Source: a virus
IMG/VR virus record: IMGVR_UViG_3300042090_002485
Location: 62,001 to 126,000 of that record
Length of the DNA: 64,000 nt
Direction: 5' to 3' (one strand)
Part shown: one piece after another, positions 4,866-62,108 of the stretch
Numbering within the stretch: position 1 is the stretch's first letter
Layout of the letters: each line of letters begins with the position of its first letter
Program-made: the position numbers and the translations under genes
The notes under the pieces: generated by a model
Seen by the model: the letters and a program-made list of their open reading frames with translations, nothing else
The model's database searches: none
Told to the model about the DNA's origin: nothing

Positions 4866-5248
4866 ATCGCAACAAGCACACCTTTCAGTTCAGCGGCTCC
4901 GCCATCGCGGAGGCTGCTGGGCGCGAGGCCGAGTACCACGGCGTTCGCTTGGCGTGGTGGACCGCCGAACAAGACAAGGCGACCCGCGCAGCGAAAGAGA
5001 AGGGCATCGAGATCCGTGAGTACGATGTCACGGGCGGCAAGCGTGCCGAGATGGTGATCGACGCGACGCTGCAGGGGCGTCTCACCGAGTGCGCGAACAA
5101 GATCTACGCACACCGTAAGGCAGCCGAACAGTTCCGCATCGAGGCAGGTGCGTACGCCGCTAACCCGACACGTGTTTACGAACTAGACCCAGAGGATGTC
5201 GTCTACTTTCGCTTGGCGGGCCTCTCGGCCAGTCAGCGCGAGGACTAG
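4862..5248 (+). CDS. hypothetical protein (128 aa)
   Basis: A 128-aa protein beginning MNRNKHTFQFSGS. It is helix-rich with a central DVTGGKRAEMVIDATLQ segment. It is the last gene of this + strand run. Its TAG stop lies in a CTAG that also supplies the stop of the convergent sigma-factor gene, so the two genes share four bases. Function not recognised. Confidence 0.65.
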   Translation: MNRNKHTFQFSGSAIAEAAGREAEYHGVRLAWWTAEQDKATRAAKEKGIEIREYDVTGGKRAEMVIDATLQGRLTECANKIYAHRKAAEQFRIEAGAYAANPTRVYELDPEDVVYFRLAGLSASQRED

Positions 5249-6333
5249 CTGCCCATCGCCGCGAACACGGACATCGGTTCGATGACCATGCCGACATGCG
5301 AGTGCAGTTCGCCGCGGAGCCGGCGCATCGCCTCAGCTTGAATGCGACGGACACGCTCGGGCGGCAGCGCCATCGTGCGCGCCACGTCGTCGGGGGCAAC
5401 TAGTTCCCCCTCAGGCCCAAAGCTGCGCTCGATCACGGTGCGCTCGAGCAGCGGCAAGCTCGTCACCGCCCCCATCACCAATTCGCGGTGGAGCAGGCGC
5501 ATGCCCGAGACCTTGAGCTGGCGGACACGCTCGGAGCACATCTCCATCATCGACGCGATCTGCACCAGGTTGCGGGCCTCGTCCTTGACGCCGAAGCACA
5601 AGTTCAGGACGGTCTGCTCACGGATGGGCAGGCGCGCGATGGCCTCGCGGACCAGTCCGCGGAGGCGTTCGGCGTCGTAGCTTGCGGTCGGTTCGGCCTC
5701 GGGCAACTCGGGCGTGTTACGCGCTGCGTCGATCGGCGTTACGACGCCCTGCGGCAAGCCAGGTTCGCTGGCCGCCTCGAGCAGGCGGATCTGCTTCTCG
5801 ATGCGCTCGAGCGCTGGGCCCTTGGCGGCCTGAGCACGCTCGCGTAGCTTGGCGAGCTTGGCGTCGGCGTTCTCGGCGTGCTCGGCCACCTTCTCGGGGC
5901 CGTGCTCCTGTAACGCGGCGCGATGCTCGCGGGCTTGTCGGCGCTGCAGTTTGTGCTTGTGTGCTGGAACGTGGACCAGCGACGCCATTGTGTAGTCCTG
6001 GTTCGACATCTCCTCGTAGATCCACCAGCCGGCGTAGGTCAGGAAGCGGATGTATGGTTTGCGGTTGGTGTCGAACTTGTCGGCCGCTTTGAGGAGGCCC
6101 AGATTGCCCGCGGCGATGTAATCCTTCACCGCCTCGGGGTCCTTGGTCCGCTTGTGCGCCATCTTCACGACGAAGCGAAGGTGCGTCTTCACGATGGCGT
6201 CTCGCGCAGCGACGTCCTTCCGCAGCTGCCACCGGCGCAGGAGCTTGCGCTCTTCTCCAGGGTCATCCACGAGCGGCGCTCGGGCGATTTCGGCGTAATA
6301 CGCGGCCGATACGCGCTGTGCGTCATTGCCCAT
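5245..6333 (-). CDS. phage RNA polymerase sigma-70-family factor with two tandem region-4-like domains
   Basis: A 362-aa protein. Residues 25-120 match sigma region 2: DYIAAGNLGLLKAADKFD is the core-binding helix and FLTYAGWWIYEEM corresponds to the FSTYATWWIR -10 recognition helix. Residues 120-190 are a charged helical insert. Two HTH units then follow: 228-285 (AIARLPIREQTVL ... SERVRQLK) and 288-345 (SLPLLERTVIERSFG ... ERVRRIQ), both resembling sigma region 4. Housekeeping sigma factors carry only one region 4, so the duplication is unusual. Expected role: redirect host core RNA polymerase to phage promoters. It is transcribed divergently from the 6514 gene across a 180-bp region. Confidence 0.9.
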   Translation of the reverse strand: MGNDAQRVSAAYYAEIARAPLVDDPGEERKLLRRWQLRKDVAARDAIVKTHLRFVVKMAHKRTKDPEAVKDYIAAGNLGLLKAADKFDTNRKPYIRFLTYAGWWIYEEMSNQDYTMASLVHVPAHKHKLQRRQAREHRAALQEHGPEKVAEHAENADAKLAKLRERAQAAKGPALERIEKQIRLLEAASEPGLPQGVVTPIDAARNTPELPEAEPTASYDAERLRGLVREAIARLPIREQTVLNLCFGVKDEARNLVQIASMMEMCSERVRQLKVSGMRLLHRELVMGAVTSLPLLERTVIERSFGPEGELVAPDDVARTMALPPERVRRIQAEAMRRLRGELHSHVGMVIEPMSVFAAMGS

Positions 6334-6513
6334 GCCTGGTCACAAGCTACCCCGGCACGGACGAGCAATCAAATAGTTCGATGGGGTTCTAGTGGTGGTC
6401 GTTCGATCCCCAGCCGCCCCTAGGGTCACGAAACTTTCAGGCGATGCTTGCCAAGCAAACATCGTCGTCGATAGGGTGGCCTTCCACCCATCATCATACA
6501 AAGGCATTTTGAC
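6334..6513. other. divergent intergenic region between sigma-factor gene and 6514 gene
   Basis: This 180-bp non-coding stretch separates divergent genes and must hold their promoters or leaders. It contains a perfect inverted repeat TGCTTG-C-CAAGCA (6445-6457) running into AACA, resembling the 17-bp element found before other operons. It is visibly richer in A/T than the flanks near 6480-6510. No small ORF or RNA gene is evident. Confidence 0.5.
6445..6461. promoter_or_regulatory. dyad element between divergent genes (TGCTTGCCAAGCAAACA)
   Basis: A 6-bp perfect inverted repeat with a 1-bp spacer, continuing into AAACA. It lies about 50 bp before the 6514 start and about 110 bp before the sigma-factor start. 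It shares the TG-n-TTG ... AAACA outline with the elements at 12920, 16417, 50976, 56216 and 58431. It could be an operator or promoter element; function is inferred only from position and similarity. Confidence 0.35.
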
Positions 6514-12919: not shown

Positions 12920-12936
12920 TGTTTGTGGCATAAACA
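12920..12936 (+). promoter_or_regulatory. 17-bp element TGTTTGTGGCATAAACA before polA
   Basis: A near-palindrome (TGTTTGTG-G-CATAAACA with one mismatched pair) in the 30-bp gap before the DNA polymerase gene. The ATG lies only 9 nt downstream and no Shine-Dalgarno is present. If the element acts as a -10-type promoter, the mRNA would be nearly leaderless. Closely related sequences occur at 16417, 50976 (- strand), 53120, 56216 and 58431. Confidence 0.5.
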
Positions 12937-17051: not shown

Positions 17052-19769
17052 CTACGTGAAGCGCAAGTTGCCGCTTAGGACACCGTTGGCGAGCCAGCCG
17101 AAGACCTGGGCGTGAAGCGAGTCGTCGGGCATGGTCGGGGAGTGGCGCCAGACCCTGCGCCCGGCGTGCGTGACCTCCTCGTAGACGTTGAGGATGTCGT
17201 TGATGGCTGGCTGCGCGTCCGACAGGCGCGGGAAGATGACCTGCTTGTGCAAGAGCTGACGGGCGTAATTGTCGATCATCGTCGTGCGGTCGACGTGGTA
17301 GGCCAGCGTCGAGGGGTTCCAGGTCTCCATCGGCTTGGACAGGTTCAGGTAGCGGAACGCGAGCACACGATGGTCACCGAGCCGCTGACGTAGGAACGAG
17401 TTGGCCAACATGCCCTCGCCCGCGTCGGCGCCGACCATCTCGACGCCCCACTTGTTGCACAGCTCGACGATCTCGTCGATCCAGCCCACGGCGTGGCCGT
17501 TCGGGAAGATCTTCGACGTCAGGGTGCGGAGCCGTCCGTCGGCCTGCTGACCCCAGATGTGGAGCACGGTGCGGGATTTGTAAAGCCCTTCGCTGCCTTT
17601 GACTTCGCCGCCGCCACCCGACCAGTCAACGCCCGCCGTCGTGCGGACGATGCCCTTCTTCGCGCCGGGCTGCGGCAATCGTTCGATGACGAGCTTCTCG
17701 TCACACAACGATTCGAGGACCTCCTTGGTCAGGAGGCGCACGCCGGTCGACGTGCTCACGCCGATGCACTCGTTCAAGAACTTGGACTCGCCGTAGAGTG
17801 GCGAGTTCATCTTGTAGAGCAGCTTGTCCCAACGCTCGACAGCACGGTCGAAGCCTTCGCTGCCGGGAACCCACGCGGCGGGCACGTCCGTCGGCATGAT
17901 GGCCTGGCTAACGTGGAAGCCCTTGATGCTCGCCCCGGGCACCATGTCGACCCACTTGCCCGCCCGCGGGTTCAGTAGGTGGCCGCACGAGACGCAGATC
18001 AGACCCTTCTTGCCGAGCGCCTTGACGCCGTCGACGAACGTCCACTTGCTGCAACCGTCGCACCGCATACACCACTCGGTCTGGGTCGACAGCGACCACA
18101 GGACCTCGATGGTGTTCTCCATCGTCTTGGGCGTGCCCGCGTACGCCGAGTACTGGTAGTTCGAGCGGGCCATGCACTCCTCGATGACGGGGATGACGGC
18201 CTCGTAGAGCATGTCCTGGATCTCGTCGAAGCACTGACCCGCGATTATCGGTCGTTGATCGACCCCGCCGCGCACGATGGGCCGATGATGCGGCACCGTG
18301 AAGCAGTAGACCGGTTCGTTGACGACTTCTTCAACAGACACGCGTCGCTTGGTCGCATATTCAGATCGCCAGAACACGGCGTGCGACTCGGCGTACGCCT
18401 GCACCTCGTAGAGGGGAAGTGGCGGTCCGCCAGGGCGCTGCGGCATCTGCCGCGTGTGTACGACCGCAGGGCGCCCGAGCAGCGCCCAGGCGCGATGCAC
18501 GTCGTCGGCCAGGCGACGCGACCGCGTTCGCAGCGTGCCGTGGTCCCACCGGTCGATCACGATACTCGCGTCACCTTGGTAAAGAGCCCGCAGCAGGGAT
18601 GGCAGCAGTGCCGGGTGCTCGAAGAACACGGCTGGGATGTACTTGCTGAAGCTGTTCCCCAAGGGCGCGACGTACTGACAAACCTGCGAGGACGCGATTA
18701 CGTAGGTGTGTTTGACGACGCGCCCTTTCTTGGTCTGACGCGACGACGGCTGCCGCGAGTACGTGAACCCGCAGCGACGCAGGCAGTCCTCGATGTCGAG
18801 ACTGTATCGGGATGCGTTCTGCGTGATGATGGCACTACCGTTCCGGCGCACTCCCTTCGTCCGGCGCCAAGAAACGTGGCCCTCCGCAAGGTACCAGCCC
18901 ATGAACTCAGAGAAGGCGCGCGCGTCGACATCGACCGGCGAGCGGCTCGTCGCGTAACCAATGGAACTGCCGGGCACGTGGATGACGACAGGCGGGGCAT
19001 CGTCGATGCGACACGCGCTTGTCATCTTGAAGCCCATGCGTTCAGTGCGTGCGATGTCCAGCGCGGAAGCGAATTGCCAGACATCTGGTGTCTTGTAGCG
19101 CGGGCCCGTCTTTACGCGAAAGTTGACCCACATCTTGTGGTCCCCGGTCACGCGAAGGTCCATCCCGGCGTGGTGAAACTTGACCATCTGACCGGTGTAC
19201 GGCAACGCGAAGAGCTTCGACGGACGGTGCCACCGGATACAGCCCTCGTCATCTACATCAGCGACTTCGTCTGCGAGGGTCAGGTCTTTGACGCAGCGCC
19301 AGCCGGCACGCGTAAGCACTTGAGCGCTCGCGTCGAAGCAGCACCGGTCTGCCGAGTAACCACGAGCGCGGTCCGGGTCGTCCATGGCGTACGTGAACGC
19401 CATCTCCGACCCGTTCTTGAGCATGCGCAACAGGACGTTGTCGATCGACTCCGGGCCGACGAACGCCTTCCGCACGTCGGGGCTGTACGCCAGGATCTTG
19501 GCGACGCGGGTGTGCGAGAACTTCCGCGTTTGCTCCTGGGTCGGCGAAATGTAGTACGACCTGAACGGCGCGGACGCGATGGCCTCGGCGATCATGAACG
19601 CCGCAAGCGTCGTCGACTTGGTGACCTGGCGCCCGGTCTTCAGCAGCAGGCGCGAGTAGTTGCCGTCGAACACGGCCTGGAACATCGGGTAGTCCGCCAG
19701 TGACAGCGGCTTGCCGTCGACGTAGAACAACCCCTGCGCGATGGTGGAGCGATAAACCTCTTCCGACAT
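17052..19769 (-). CDS. terL: terminase large subunit interrupted by an intein
   Basis: A 905-aa precursor. The mature terminase would be 536 aa. Its ATPase has a P-loop-like GRQVTKST at 46-53 and a Walker B CFDEIQDM that is created only after splicing. A zinc ribbon (CMRCDGC ... CVSCG) follows, then an RNase H-fold nuclease with acids in GVDWSGG, GADAGEG and PDDSLHAQ. The intein occupies residues 144-512. TerL cuts and pumps concatemeric DNA into proheads at the portal. The zinc ribbon between ATPase and nuclease resembles GpA-type terminases. It is transcribed alone on the - strand, divergent from the MoxR gene across 37 bp and with a weak Shine-Dalgarno. Confidence 0.92.
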   Translation of the reverse strand: MSEEVYRSTIAQGLFYVDGKPLSLADYPMFQAVFDGNYSRLLLKTGRQVTKSTTLAAFMIAEAIASAPFRSYYISPTQEQTRKFSHTRVAKILAYSPDVRKAFVGPESIDNVLLRMLKNGSEMAFTYAMDDPDRARGYSADRCCFDASAQVLTRAGWRCVKDLTLADEVADVDDEGCIRWHRPSKLFALPYTGQMVKFHHAGMDLRVTGDHKMWVNFRVKTGPRYKTPDVWQFASALDIARTERMGFKMTSACRIDDAPPVVIHVPGSSIGYATSRSPVDVDARAFSEFMGWYLAEGHVSWRRTKGVRRNGSAIITQNASRYSLDIEDCLRRCGFTYSRQPSSRQTKKGRVVKHTYVIASSQVCQYVAPLGNSFSKYIPAVFFEHPALLPSLLRALYQGDASIVIDRWDHGTLRTRSRRLADDVHRAWALLGRPAVVHTRQMPQRPGGPPLPLYEVQAYAESHAVFWRSEYATKRRVSVEEVVNEPVYCFTVPHHRPIVRGGVDQRPIIAGQCFDEIQDMLYEAVIPVIEECMARSNYQYSAYAGTPKTMENTIEVLWSLSTQTEWCMRCDGCSKWTFVDGVKALGKKGLICVSCGHLLNPRAGKWVDMVPGASIKGFHVSQAIMPTDVPAAWVPGSEGFDRAVERWDKLLYKMNSPLYGESKFLNECIGVSTSTGVRLLTKEVLESLCDEKLVIERLPQPGAKKGIVRTTAGVDWSGGGGEVKGSEGLYKSRTVLHIWGQQADGRLRTLTSKIFPNGHAVGWIDEIVELCNKWGVEMVGADAGEGMLANSFLRQRLGDHRVLAFRYLNLSKPMETWNPSTLAYHVDRTTMIDNYARQLLHKQVIFPRLSDAQPAINDILNVYEEVTHAGRRVWRHSPTMPDDSLHAQVFGWLANGVLSGNLRFT
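18234..19340 (-). mobile_element. LAGLIDADG intein in TerL Walker B
   Basis: A 369-aa protein intron. Block A starts CFDASAQVLTRAGWRCVKDL. Block B has the T-G-D-H motif (208-211). Two dodecapeptides of a LAGLIDADG homing endonuclease are FMGWYLAEGH (289-298) and LLRALYQGDA (392-401). Block F is PVYCFTVPHHRPIVRGG. The intein ends in A-G-Q before Cys+1 (CFDEIQ). The terminal Gln and the lack of the usual penultimate His are non-canonical but known in some inteins. Both junctions carry the same 10 bp (plus strand CGTCGAAGCA at 18224-18233 and 19331-19340). Confidence 0.9.
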
Positions 19770-22748: not shown

Positions 22749-22771
22749 GTTGAAATGATAGGGGATCCGCG

Positions 22772-27597: not shown

Positions 27598-27618
27598 GCC
27601 CGCCCTAAAATTATAGGG
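27598..27618 (-). promoter_or_regulatory. TATAAT-containing dyad between divergent genes
   Basis: CCCTAAAATTATAGGG forms an inverted repeat (CCCTA/TAGGG). On the - strand it reads CCCTATAATTTTAGGG, giving a perfect -10 hexamer about 45 nt before the GTG of the 122-aa gene. No convincing -35 is visible. This A/T-rich island stands out in the GC-rich surroundings, so host-type sigma recognition is plausible. Confidence 0.4.
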
Positions 27619-34108: not shown

Positions 34109-34126
34109 GTTCCGGGCCTCCGAATT

Positions 34127-36526
34127 CTAGGTCACGACGAGGATGAGCGGGCTCTCCACCATGCCGATGTCTCGCGGCGCGGTCACCCCCTCTATAGTAC
34201 CGTCCCACCCCGTGGCGGAAGGGTCGAAGGCCGCTGTTGTCATGGCCGGATCGATCCCACCCGTCTGCAGCGCCATGTCGCCGACCGTAGGGTCGACCGA
34301 GCTGGTGGAGATGTTGCCGATGTTGAGCTGGCGGAACGTGACGTTGACGGTGGTTGCGGTCCAGGCCGTCAGCCGGGTAACCGTGCAGTTGACGTAGTCC
34401 ACAGAGTAGTCGACGTTCTCGACCAGCGCCAAGCCGCCGATCGACCCGGCGGACATGTCAACCTTGACCAATCGACGCCGGTGGGGCGCCGATGGAGCGT
34501 CGGGCAGCGTCACGGGCACGCTGGGCGTCGGGAACGCCGTGGATGCCGTGAAGACCTCGTAGTGGAAGAAGTCCCCCGAGATCCAGCCGTTCACCCCGGA
34601 CGTCGGTGGGTCGTCGGTGAAGATCACCTCGTCGGGGCCGTAGACCCGCGAGCCCACCAGTCGGTCAAACGAGATGTCGACCTCGTCGACCTCGACATCG
34701 TCCGAGAGGTAGGTGCCGGGCACGGTGAACGCGAAGGTGTGCGCGGGCTTGGCCGACTGGACCAGCGTGTTCAGGTTGTCGAGGCTCTGCGCGAATGCAG
34801 CGGCCGACGACGCGATGGCGGACAGCGCGATCGCGTCGAACGACACGGAGAACGTGTGGAACTTGAGGTACTGGTCCATCAGGACGAACGCGAGGCGGTG
34901 ACGCAGGATGGGCAGCGTGACGCCGTCCTCGACGCGCGGGGTCGGGATGAAGCCGTTCTCGTCGGCGCCGCAGAACAGGCCGGGGTCACCGCACAGAGCG
35001 CCGTCGTCTGGGTTGCAGACGTGAGCCACGAACACCGAGCTGGCGGTGCGCCGGCTGATCGGAGGCGGCGTGCCACCGAACAGCTGCTTGGGGATGACTT
35101 GCCCGTACCACCAGTTGGGCGTCTGGACGTAGTCCGTCACCGTGACCGCCGTGGTCAGCACCTCGAACGCCATCAAGGTTGTGCCCTGCGTTAGGTCCGT
35201 GCGCAGCGGCGTGTTCGGCGGGAAGTCGTACGTGATGGTCTGGCCCGACGATGGCGACGTCGTGAAGATGCGCCACACCGTCGGGTCGCTGGTGTCCGTC
35301 GACTGGTAGATCTCGCCGTCGCCGTGCACGACCGGCAGGTTCATGACGACGTTGAGCGCGCTCTCGATGCGGTCGAGCACGGGCCCGAGGATGTAGAGCT
35401 GGAAAATGCCCTGCAGGAACGCGCGGTACGCTTCCGAGCTGGGCTGGACGAAGCCGATCAGCGAGCCGAAGTTGTTCGCCAGCGTCATCTTGTCGACGAG
35501 CGCGTCCGGGGCCCACGCGGCGATCTCCAGGGCGGTCGTCGTGGTTGCCTGCGCCTGGATGACGCCGGTCGAGACGAGCCGCGGCGAGCTGCCCGACGTT
35601 GGGTAGACCTCTTCTTGCCACGTGTAGCTCATCCCGTAGGGCCCCGGCAGGTACAGCCACGTCGTGAGCACGTAGATGATGCCGGCTTCGTAGTTGACCT
35701 CGTAGTCCACCCCCTCGACAACGTTCGCGCCCGTCGGTCCCGAGGCGAAGATCGTCAACGAGCCCTGGTCGATGCGCGTGTGGGCGAGCTGGATCTGGCC
35801 GCCAACGACGGCATCCGATTCTGAGATCACCTGAGCGTTCGCAGGCACGCGCAAGATGACGTAGTCCACGCCCGACGCGAGCGCGGGCAGCGCATTGGTA
35901 GCGGTCACGAACAGCGCCGGGGTCCGCACCAATGCGATCGGGTAGTCGCCGAGCTTGCGCTGCGCGCCGTTGGTGCCAACGGCGAGCAGTCGAATGGTGT
36001 CACCCTTCTCGACGGGGGTCGTTGTCCAGTCGGTGACGCCAGCGTCGGTAAACTGGCCACCAACCGCGACGTCGACGGTCCGGCGCGCGAAGCCATCGAG
36101 CGGTACGCCGTTGCCGGTGGGGTCGGTCGGGTCGGCGTGGAACAGCACCACGCCGGAGGCAACCTCGTAGTCGAGGTTGGGCTCGAGCGACGCGGTTGGC
36201 TCGACCACTTGGTTGTCGATCGATGCGAACGAGACGACGGGGCTCGGCAGCGTGAACGCCCAGCGATTCGCAGGGGACGTCGTACCCTCGATGAAGCTGA
36301 TCTCGTCCTCGCGGATCGTCAGCATCTGGAACAGCTCGCGGTCGAGCGCGACGCAGTCCTGCAGCGACACGCCGAGCATCGCGGAGAGGTAGTCGAGGTA
36401 GGCCTGGCCGATGAGGATGGCCGTGCCCTCGTAGAGCGAGCCGAGCTGGTCGGCATCGGCGAAGAAGCGATTCCAGAAATCGCTAAGGCCACTTATCAGA
36501 TTATAAGAATATCCAACGGCGGGCAT
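34127..36526 (-). CDS. large baseplate/tail structural protein (799 aa)
   Basis: A 799-aa, beta-rich protein with short motifs typical of virion proteins (many T/V/D/N loops) and an N-terminal helical block (ISGLSDFWNRFFADADQL) of the kind that packs on other baseplate wedge proteins. A Cys cluster (HVCNPDDGALCGDPGLFC) lies near residue 500. It is immediately downstream of the baseplate J homologue and a transplanted HNH gene, whose stop overlaps its ATG (TAATG). Likely a baseplate wedge or fibre-attachment protein; exact family not recognised. Confidence 0.7.
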   Translation of the reverse strand: MPAVGYSYNLISGLSDFWNRFFADADQLGSLYEGTAILIGQAYLDYLSAMLGVSLQDCVALDRELFQMLTIREDEISFIEGTTSPANRWAFTLPSPVVSFASIDNQVVEPTASLEPNLDYEVASGVVLFHADPTDPTGNGVPLDGFARRTVDVAVGGQFTDAGVTDWTTTPVEKGDTIRLLAVGTNGAQRKLGDYPIALVRTPALFVTATNALPALASGVDYVILRVPANAQVISESDAVVGGQIQLAHTRIDQGSLTIFASGPTGANVVEGVDYEVNYEAGIIYVLTTWLYLPGPYGMSYTWQEEVYPTSGSSPRLVSTGVIQAQATTTTALEIAAWAPDALVDKMTLANNFGSLIGFVQPSSEAYRAFLQGIFQLYILGPVLDRIESALNVVMNLPVVHGDGEIYQSTDTSDPTVWRIFTTSPSSGQTITYDFPPNTPLRTDLTQGTTLMAFEVLTTAVTVTDYVQTPNWWYGQVIPKQLFGGTPPPISRRTASSVFVAHVCNPDDGALCGDPGLFCGADENGFIPTPRVEDGVTLPILRHRLAFVLMDQYLKFHTFSVSFDAIALSAIASSAAAFAQSLDNLNTLVQSAKPAHTFAFTVPGTYLSDDVEVDEVDISFDRLVGSRVYGPDEVIFTDDPPTSGVNGWISGDFFHYEVFTASTAFPTPSVPVTLPDAPSAPHRRRLVKVDMSAGSIGGLALVENVDYSVDYVNCTVTRLTAWTATTVNVTFRQLNIGNISTSSVDPTVGDMALQTGGIDPAMTTAAFDPSATGWDGTIEGVTAPRDIGMVESPLILVVT

Positions 36527-51012: not shown

Positions 51013-53133
51013 GTGCCGACGCTCCAAGAACTGCTCTCCAACCCCGCTCACGGTCTCGTCAAGGAAGCGCGTCCCGCTCAGCTCGCGATGGCCGCAGCTG
51101 TCGAGCAGGTCTTGCGTGACGGTGGAGCTTACTTCGTCGAGGCGCCGGTTGCTACCGGCAAGACGTACGCGTACCTGCTGCCTGCGCTGCTCGCTCAAGG
51201 CAAGCGCGTTGTGGTGGCGACCGCCAAGAAGCAGCTGCAAGACCAGATCGTCGAGAAGGACTTCCCCGCGCTCAAGCGCATCCTCGGCATCCGCGCCGCT
51301 TCGATGGTGGCCACGCCGCTCAAGGGCAAGGGCACCTACGCTTGCCAGCTCGCGGCCAATGCGATCCTGGACCGCGGCGACGAAGACCGCACGGTGTTCG
51401 ACCGGTTCCTGGCGCGCTCGCTCTATGGCGACCGAGCCGACTACGGCGGCGCTGTGCCAGCGTGGTGGTCACAGGCCACCGCGGAAGACTGCGTCGGCAA
51501 GCGCTGCGCTTACTTTAGCGACTGCGGCTATATCCGCCTCAAGCAAGCCGTGCGCGAGTCCCAGCTCGTCGTCGTCAACCATCACGTCCTGGGTGCCGAC
51601 ATGTTCTTGGGCCTGGGCAAGATGGTGGGTGGCGCCTACGACGTCCTGGTCGTCGATGAGGCCCACACGCTCGCCGCCGGTATCCGCGCTGCGTTCTCGC
51701 ACAAGCTCGGCGAGGACTCGATCGGCCAGGTCTGGGAGCTGCTCAAGCGCACAGGCCTGGTGTTCCCGCAACTGCGAAAGCTGCTCGAGCCGTGGGGCGC
51801 GATGTTCGAGGCTGTCCCCGATCGCGGGTTCGAGTCGAAGTCGCGCGAGGCTCCGGTATTCCCCGGCGGCATGGCCGCCGCGATCATCGAGAACCTGCGG
51901 CTCGCCGCGGGTGAGCTGGCCAAGACGCTGACGACGTTCGGCGGCACCGCGTTCGAAGACGCGCCGGAGGAGATGCCAGAGGACATCTACGTCGACGGCG
52001 AGCCGATCGAGGCCATCGAGGTGGACAAGGCCGCGCACGCGATTGCGGTCGAGGAGGAGAATGCGCGCGTTCAGGGCGTGCTGACCCAAGCCCAGAAGCG
52101 CGTCGACCAGCTGCTCCGCGGTTTGTCGACAGCGCAGGGCGTGGTCGAGCCGGACACCACCATCACCGACCCCGAGCAGGTAGAGATGCGGCGCGCGCGC
52201 ATCTTGGCCAACACGGCGATCTACTCGACGGTCGATGACCGCGGGCGCTTCGCAGTCAAGTGCGAGCCCGTGAGCGTAGGTGGCATCGCTGGGCGCTACC
52301 TCGCCGCGCTCAAGACGGTCGTGGTGTGCAGCGCGACACTCGCGCACGACAGCAAGTTCGAGCACGTCGAGAACATGACCGGCCTATCTCCGGTCAAAGC
52401 CGAGGTCCTGCCGACGTCGTTCGACTACGACAAGCAGGGCTTCGTGTTCATCCCGCGGGGGCTGGCCATCCCCGGGCGCAAGGACCCGGAGTACGACGCC
52501 GTCATGCGCAAGCGCGTCGACATGGCGGTGCGCCTGGTCGAGCTGTCCGAGGGCGGCGCGTTCATCTTGACCACCGCAAACGACGAGCTGGATGCCTTCG
52601 CGACCGCACTCAAGCAGCGCTTCCCGGGCCGCACGTTCGCGCAGGGCCACCGCAAGAACCCATGGGACGGTGACCCCAACGCCGCGCTCGCCAAGTTCAA
52701 GACGACGCGCGACTCCGTGCTGGTCGGCTCGAAGTCGTTCTGGGAGGGTGTCGATGTACCCGGCGGCGACCTTCGCCTGGTGATCGTCGCGAAGCTGCCG
52801 TTCCCGCACTTCAACGACCCGATCATCAAGGCCCGCGAACGGCTCGCGGGCGACAACGCGTTCCGTGACGTCCAGCTCGTAGACATGTTGGTTGACCTGC
52901 GCCAAGGCGTCGGGCGGCTCATCCGTACGCGCGCGGACCGCGGCTGCGTCGCCATCCTAGATTCCCGGATCTGGGAGAAGGGCTACGGCGGGCTCGTGCG
53001 CCGCGCGTTGCCGTGGTCGAACAACCTGGTGACGTCGGACTTCGCGAACTGCGAGAAGATCCTGCCGCGCTACGTGGCGTACTTCCGGCGTCAAGCCCTC
53101 GCAGGTAGCTCCGCTCTGGCGTTTGTGGGATAA
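51013..53133 (+). CDS. DinG/XPD-like superfamily 2 helicase
   Basis: A 706-aa helicase. Walker A EAPVATGKT (43-51), motif Ia ATAKKQLQ, a four-cysteine Fe-S region (GTYACQ ... DCVGKRCAYFSDC), VNHH, DEAH in VVDEAHTL, VVVCSATL, and a final GVGRLIRT motif VI. This is the Fe-S DinG/XPD type, a 5'-3' helicase in repair or R-loop removal. The GTG at 51013 has GGGAG 5 nt upstream. The in-frame ATG at 50995 is possible, but its Shine-Dalgarno would have to lie inside the promoter element. The stop codon falls within the next 17-bp element. Confidence 0.88.
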   Translation: MPTLQELLSNPAHGLVKEARPAQLAMAAAVEQVLRDGGAYFVEAPVATGKTYAYLLPALLAQGKRVVVATAKKQLQDQIVEKDFPALKRILGIRAASMVATPLKGKGTYACQLAANAILDRGDEDRTVFDRFLARSLYGDRADYGGAVPAWWSQATAEDCVGKRCAYFSDCGYIRLKQAVRESQLVVVNHHVLGADMFLGLGKMVGGAYDVLVVDEAHTLAAGIRAAFSHKLGEDSIGQVWELLKRTGLVFPQLRKLLEPWGAMFEAVPDRGFESKSREAPVFPGGMAAAIIENLRLAAGELAKTLTTFGGTAFEDAPEEMPEDIYVDGEPIEAIEVDKAAHAIAVEEENARVQGVLTQAQKRVDQLLRGLSTAQGVVEPDTTITDPEQVEMRRARILANTAIYSTVDDRGRFAVKCEPVSVGGIAGRYLAALKTVVVCSATLAHDSKFEHVENMTGLSPVKAEVLPTSFDYDKQGFVFIPRGLAIPGRKDPEYDAVMRKRVDMAVRLVELSEGGAFILTTANDELDAFATALKQRFPGRTFAQGHRKNPWDGDPNAALAKFKTTRDSVLVGSKSFWEGVDVPGGDLRLVIVAKLPFPHFNDPIIKARERLAGDNAFRDVQLVDMLVDLRQGVGRLIRTRADRGCVAILDSRIWEKGYGGLVRRALPWSNNLVTSDFANCEKILPRYVAYFRRQALAGSSALAFVG

Positions 53134-61526: not shown

Positions 61527-62108
61527 ATGAGCAAGCAACCTATGCTCCCCGAAGACGTCGAGCAAGCCGTTCTTGCGGCGAAGTGGGGAGATGCCGAAGC
61601 CGACGCCACCGAGGCGATCGCCAAGATGCTCGACGCGCCGCGCGAGCTGGTCGTGCGGGTGCACGCGGCCTACGCAATCGCGGCGAACCTGCGCATGACC
61701 CTCGTCGAGCCCGCCGACGAGGAGGTTCCCGAGGATGTACAGAACGCCATGGCTGCGCACCTTCGGCGCGCACTCACCCGTGTGCGGGTACGCCAGGCCA
61801 TTCGCGATGGCGACGTCGTGTGGATCTCCGTCAACAAGCTGATCAAGAACCCCGCGCACGTGTGTCGTGGATGCGTACACTCGGTGCGATGCATCGCCGA
61901 GTTGTTGTCGACGGCCGAGAAGTGCTTCGCGCAAGGGCCGCCGCACGTGATCGAGGAACACCCCGTCGTAGGGCTACGACTCGTACGCCCCGGGAAGGCG
62001 AGCGTCGCTGCGGCCCCTGTGAAGATCCGCGGTGACACGGTCACGGTTACCTGCCTCCACCCCGTGGGCACCTACACCATCGACGTCGGAGACATCCACT
62101 CGTCATGA
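61527..62108 (+). CDS. hypothetical protein with C-x-x-C ... C module (193 aa)
   Basis: A 193-aa protein starting MSKQPMLPEDVEQ; GGAGG lies 8 nt upstream, inside the 24-bp divergent gap. A helical N-terminus is followed by CRGCVHSVRCIAELLSTAEKC. The same C-x-x-C-x-x-SV-x-C-x-A pattern appears in the next gene (NCGTCPVSVHCMAK), so the two are probably paralogues. It may bind an Fe-S cluster or zinc. Stop overlaps next ATG. Confidence 0.62.
   Translation: MSKQPMLPEDVEQAVLAAKWGDAEADATEAIAKMLDAPRELVVRVHAAYAIAANLRMTLVEPADEEVPEDVQNAMAAHLRRALTRVRVRQAIRDGDVVWISVNKLIKNPAHVCRGCVHSVRCIAELLSTAEKCFAQGPPHVIEEHPVVGLRLVRPGKASVAAAPVKIRGDTVTVTCLHPVGTYTIDVGDIHSS

Follow-up and report, generated by a model that had tools for sequence, protein, structure and literature searches.

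A phage sigma-70-family factor with tandem region 4 units in a lineage that encodes its own RNA polymerase

A sigma-70-family gene with two region 4 units

We analyzed a 64,000-nucleotide (nt) stretch of viral DNA (the window), positions 62,001 to 126,000 of IMG/VR record IMGVR_UViG_3300042090_002485, and focused on an open reading frame (ORF) of 362 amino acids (aa) that encodes a sigma-70-family protein with tandem region 4 units. In sigma factors, region 4 holds the beta flap of RNA polymerase (RNAP) and reads the -35 box. The gene and its parts, in window positions, are:

5245..6333, minus strand: sigma-70-family ORF, 362 aa (Pfam, PHROGs, PDB and NCBIfam matches)
6220..6306, minus strand: region 1.2-like helix, residues 10-38; the alignment with RpoS begins at residue 10, and the helix is kept among relatives
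6007..6192, minus strand: region 2 (-10 reading, core binding), residues 48-109 (Pfam Sigma70_r2)
5755..5871, minus strand: linker insert, residues 155-193, resembling a segment of the phage's own beta' and present only in tandem sigmas
5491..5643, minus strand: unit 1 (U1), region 4, residues 231-281 (Pfam Sigma70_r4 on the isolated piece)
5458..5535, minus strand: continuous helix, residues 267-292, leading from the U1 recognition helix to unit 2 (AlphaFold fragment model)
5314..5460, minus strand: unit 2 (U2), second region 4, residues 292-340 (Pfam Sigma70_r4 on the isolated piece; under purifying selection)
6344..6372, minus strand: candidate host-like promoter of the sigma gene, TTGATT-N17-TAGCTT, found by eye; its position is kept in the related loci L002 and L010

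The ORF matched phrog_351, RNA polymerase sigma factor, in PHROGs (E value 2.9e-35). Searched as a whole protein against Pfam, it gave Sigma70_r2 at residues 48-109 (37.2 bits, cut-off 24) and Sigma70_r4 in two stretches, in agreement with the original prediction of a good region 2 followed by two region-4-like units; region 3 was not detected in the ORF by Pfam. When the two pieces were searched separately, both exceeded the curated gathering cut-off for Sigma70_r4 of 24.1 bits, residues 218-286 with 37.6 bits (E 1.5e-9) and residues 287-362 with 31.1 bits (E 1.7e-7). NCBIfam and PDB likewise returned region 4 for each half, the best region 4 match being of the SigA/RpoD type for U1 and RpoS for U2, and these matches exclude that U2 is a region 3 or an unrelated helix-turn-helix (HTH). 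The motifs quoted in the original prediction, LPIREQTV...SERVRQL and LPLLERTV...PERVRRI, sit at the residues it gave, and the two units align without a gap over 55 residues with a BLOSUM score of 83, compared with a mean of 24 (standard deviation 4.3, maximum 45) in 1000 shuffles. The tandem was thus upheld by sequence and, as described below, by structural modeling, phylogeny and conservation. An origin of U2 by read-through into, or fusion with, the downstream gene was rejected because the extra unit precedes the sigma stop codon, which overlaps the end of the convergent neighbor by 4 nt in the window and in loci L009, L002 and L010.

AlphaFold modeled the fragment spanning residues 215-362 as two HTH modules (predicted local distance difference test score, pLDDT, 82; predicted template modeling score, pTM, 0.69). 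Foldseek matched the C-terminal module to single sigma4 structures, many at root-mean-square deviations of 1.1-2.0 Å over 54-69 columns with probability 1.00 and E values of about 0.05 or worse; it returned no tandem sigma4 structure, and the viral library likewise gave single matches only. The protein thus shares region 2 and region 4 with the bacterial sigma-70 factors RpoS, RpoD and SigA (Pfam, PDB and NCBIfam) but differs from them in its two region 4 units, the undetected region 3, a linker insert that resembles beta', and a partner that is probably the phage core. A single C-terminal region 4 is usual, if not strictly defining, for the sigma-70 family, whereas here it is in tandem. ECF (group 4) factors consist only of regions 2 and 4 joined by a short linker; the phage protein has in addition a region 1.2-like part, a long linker with an insert and the second region 4.

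The tandem units are confined to one clade

An IMG/VR scan identified 71 sigma loci, from which 62 ORFs were extracted. Two distinct tandem sequences were present among them: the window's own, with an identical copy in contig L001/L032, and that of another phage at L009/L023, which is 76% identical to it. The other 60 extracted relatives lack the tandem; several of them, including L002, L010, L024 and L029, have a single region 4 and are 62-66% identical to the window's protein; L002 and L010 also share synteny with the window. In a maximum-likelihood tree the tandem sigmas form one clade (support 100/100) nested in the single-unit group. U2 of L009 is nearest to the region 4s of its own sigma clade, with a score of 104 to L027 and 68 to RpoS; U2 of the window scored 93 to RpoS, comparable with its own clade (102-88). 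The C-terminal end of U2 also resembles the end of the single-unit proteins (HSRVGMSIE vs KQRVGLSTE). An internal tandem duplication in the ancestor of the two phages is the simplest account of U2, and capture of a region 4 from the host is a less simple alternative.

No tandem region 4 covering 80% of the tandem was found among annotated phage records, none was found in genome contigs by a close-relative pattern scan, and literature phrase searches returned no case of a sigma with tandem region 4, none of these searches being exhaustive. The sigma of Aeromonas phage phiA8-29 has one region 4 only. A sigma combining a duplicated tail with a polymerase-like piece was likewise absent from the literature searched. 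Since region 4 is single in the other relatives read here, the natural tandem, its close single-unit orthologues and the candidate promoters described below make the function of a second copy addressable.

U2 is maintained and unevenly conserved

We compared the window with L009 and obtained ratios of nonsynonymous to synonymous divergence (dN/dS) of 0.22 for U1 and 0.24 for U2, with a synonymous divergence (dS) of ~1 in the U2 comparison, indicating that both units are under purifying selection and that U2 is maintained. Between the two phages the first half of U2 (residues 287-310, the flap-side helices as judged by position) shows 92% identity and its DNA-reading HTH half 46%. The ERVRQ-type core of the recognition helix is kept in most single-unit relatives and in L009 has changed in U1 (EQVRLLK) as well as in U2 (ACVRRIQ). 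This pattern suits an additional docking module more than a second reader of the -35 box. Class-II activators touch sigma4 near the end of its recognition helix, and U2, carried on the end of the U1 helix in the model, would lie at about that place.

The phage lineage encodes a multisubunit RNA polymerase

RNAP beta was encoded in 18 of 18 sigma-bearing phage contigs tested (G000-G004 and 13 further ones), which had been picked by sigma similarity alone; G015, among the further 13, is the near-identical L001 contig. The record that contains the window carries:

G000:C1:54348-59762 (L008:14348-19762), left of the window, minus strand: fused RNAP beta and N-terminal part of beta', 1804 aa (bacterial beta/beta' matches)
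Record positions 51101-52879 (L008:11101-12879), left of the window: C-terminal part of beta', separate ORF, 592 aa

The first part of the fusion matches bacterial beta and residues 1431-1802 match bacterial beta', with NADYDGD present. At the conserved GDKLC/NRYGNKG site the fusion is interrupted by an intein-like insert that has a LAGLIDADG match, and the phage beta has a diverged stretch at the expected flap-tip position. In G000-G004 the RNAP genes lie ~7-11 kb from the sigma gene on the same strand; alpha (PF01193) was not found in these five phages, whose records may be incomplete. Because all 18 contigs encode RNAP beta, here as a fused beta-beta' together with the beta' C-terminal part, the sigma probably serves the phage core and not that of the host. 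The host core RNAP, which the original prediction had implied as the partner, is therefore probably the wrong one.

Multimeric RNAP-encoding Caudovirales (mReC) are likewise IMG/VR phage contigs encoding beta and beta' recognizable by cellular models (PMC7481178), but here beta and the N-terminal part of beta' are fused; the mReC paper does not mention sigma in its main text (PMC7481178). The non-virion RNAP of AR9 and phiKZ is also a multisubunit phage enzyme that lacks alpha and works with a phage specificity factor (PMC7598289). AR9 gp226, however, has no sequence similarity to sigma, whereas the specificity factor here is a sigma-70 homologue. The same review treats RNAP-encoding and sigma-encoding jumbo phages as separate, unrelated groups (PMC7598289), whereas the family described here combines both in every contig tested. 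A phage core and its sigma-70 factor could therefore be reconstituted to study sigma without a phage alpha, and the arrangement is directly testable in vitro.

The linker insert resembles the phage's own beta'

The original prediction had also noted a charged insert, which is real (approximately residues 148-190) and missing from all single-unit sigmas aligned. Residues 155-193 align with beta' of the same phage without a gap, 20 of 39 positions being identical (77/120 nt), and the matched beta' stretch lies just before the LTKVPVTPPVIRP block. The alignment score of 98 exceeds the maximum of 45 reached in 2000 shuffles, and this was the sole strong non-self match among the phage's 1815 open frames, the next best scoring 56. 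The insert of L009 likewise matches L009's own beta' (score 87). Given the absence of the insert from single-unit sigmas, both novelties, the second region 4 and the insert, arise in the same clade. The segment may have been captured from beta' or may have converged on it; if it is truly a captured segment, this sigma would have taken up a piece of the core enzyme it works with.

A candidate late promoter with a -10-type element

As a candidate late promoter we identified the -10-type element CCTAT[A/C]ATT, which occurs 12, 3, 13, 10 and 12 times in G000-G004, respectively (the reversed pattern 0-1 times), for the most part on the strand that carries sigma and RNAP. In most of the more remote sigma phages it is less frequent, and G009, G010 and G013 lack it. 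Forty-nine intergenic sites in four phages were retained, many of them 5 nt ahead of a start codon. The site is kept at orthologous genes, and a terminase gene and a tail-protein gene in the window lie on the same strand as sigma and RNAP. Examples in the window are:

22754..22762, minus strand: candidate late promoter -10 element CCTATCATT
27609..27617, minus strand: candidate late promoter -10 element CCTATAATT, the sequence reached through a 6-mer list
34123..34131, minus strand: candidate late promoter -10 element CCTAGAATT, with one mismatch

At these three positions, as at sites in four phages, the element is often only 4-6 nt ahead of the start codon, and late mRNAs would therefore be leaderless.

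The original prediction had proposed that a duplicated region 4 could read two -35-like boxes or else bind an anti-sigma or an activator. The two-box reading is unsupported: across the 21 late promoter candidates from the two tandem phages, an upstream box was not significant (1.26 vs a 95th percentile of 1.36), and G000 alone showed a weak TTKG-type -35 signal that was also not significant (1.50 vs 1.66). In the single-unit phages the -35/spacer region was significant (2.16 vs 1.09), partly from non-independent orthologues. A gapped-dyad motif search gave nothing useful.

A -10-type late promoter and a flap-binding sigma4-like module are also features of the T4 gp55/gp33 system, in which, as here, -35 conservation is little or absent (PMC2988020, PMC7892883); T4 late promoters have no -35 conservation (PMC2988020). 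T4 gp33, however, is a separate protein without sequence similarity to sigma that acts on the host RNAP with a sliding clamp. In the phage described here both units lie in one chain and both are Sigma70_r4 and, unlike in the T4 system, no DNA_pol3_beta-type clamp was found in the phage.

A proposed docking role for the second region 4

The account we prefer, with evenly balanced confidence, is that this is the sigma of a phage lineage with its own multisubunit RNAP, in which U1 is an ordinary region 4, U2 serves mainly for docking and the linker carries a beta'-like segment. Region 2 would recognize CCTAT[A/C]ATT, and U1 would dock on the beta flap, most likely that of the phage beta, and read a weak -35 at most. 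U2, derived by region 4 duplication in the ancestor of the two phages and held at the end of the U1 recognition helix, would mainly provide an extra docking surface, whether for the flap, an activator or upstream non-specific DNA, and would not act as a second sequence reader. The linker of this clade would also have acquired a helical stretch similar to the clamp region of the phage beta', and this stretch probably helps to place sigma on the phage core. For U2 taken singly, a docking or activator-like module is the most likely role, held with moderate to low confidence. Several points weigh against this account: the tandem is known from just two distinct sequences; the late promoters are assigned to the tandem sigma by an indirect link; 21 sites give limited power for a degenerate second box; the window's own U2 has an intact ERVR core and could therefore still read DNA; and the AlphaFold model of the whole sigma (pLDDT 70.9) has a low pTM of 0.37.

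Were U2 a second DNA reader, with the two units on two tandem -35-like boxes, its region 4 score and the basic PERVRRIQ recognition helix of the window copy would be expected, but the 21 candidate promoters of the tandem phages show no significant second box, the DNA-reading half is the fast-evolving part of U2 and L009, where this helix reads TVACVRRIQ, has lost the ERVRQ-type contact residues; we regard this proposal as quite improbable. The two units could instead fit two cores, one the phage beta flap and the other that of the host, which would let a single sigma use or interfere with both polymerases. The diverged flap tip of the phage beta, the nearly invariant first half of U2 and the resemblance of the window's U2 to RpoS region 4 all agree with such a division, but single-unit relatives encode RNAP too and manage with one region 4, and we consider it unlikely.

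Less probable again, though not to the degree of the second reader, is that sigma works on host RNAP only, as in most sigma-bearing phages, with U2 as a minor addition. Regions 2 and 4 do resemble RpoS/RpoD, and jumbo phages that have a sigma but no RNAP are presumed to rely on the host core (PMC7598289), yet RNAP beta was present in every sigma-bearing contig tested and the insert matches phage beta'. That U2 is a decaying, non-functional tail would account for the divergence of its HTH half; its overall dN/dS, the near identity of its first half at such synonymous divergence, its retention in both phages and its confidently modeled fold make this very improbable indeed. Returning to the docking account, we suggest more tentatively that it describes a phage class with a fused beta-beta' polymerase, apparently without alpha, and a dedicated sigma-70, one branch of which gained a second region 4, as a built-in activator-like or second flap-binding module, and a captured beta' segment, with domain traffic between polymerase and sigma.

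Other elements and genes

The phage genome also carries 17-bp palindrome-like TGTTTGYGNRATAAACAT elements, about 25 of them mostly intergenic, with 34 sites scored genome-wide vs 2.8 expected by chance. Examples are:

Window positions 12920, 16417, 50975, 53120, 56216 and 58431: TGTTTGYGNRATAAACAT elements

They are usually co-oriented with a gene and 5-50 nt ahead of it, and are present in relatives too. Because single-unit phages have them as well, and because some of them lie on or next to host-like -35/-10 hexamers, they look more operator-like, and we do not favor them as promoters of the tandem sigma, although they may be operators, stoperators or promoters.

A third region 4 match, at G000:C1:131393 (Sigma70_r4, 24.7 bits), was set aside as a LuxR/GerE-type HTH by eye; the small protein that contains it (G000:C1:131354-131587, plus strand; L016:5354-5587) is possibly a regulator. 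The terminase large subunit (905 aa; window 17055-19769, minus strand) has a LAGLIDADG-type internal insert. At L002:8771-9205 (minus strand) a 144-aa ORF, HNH-like by eye, separates the sigma gene from its usual convergent neighbor. Finally, the distant phage sigmas of L013, L014 and L015, with ORFs near 7.7-8.7 kb, have CxxC inserts resembling zinc ribbons that separate the region 1.2-like part from region 2, and an additional cluster of Cys residues ahead of region 4.
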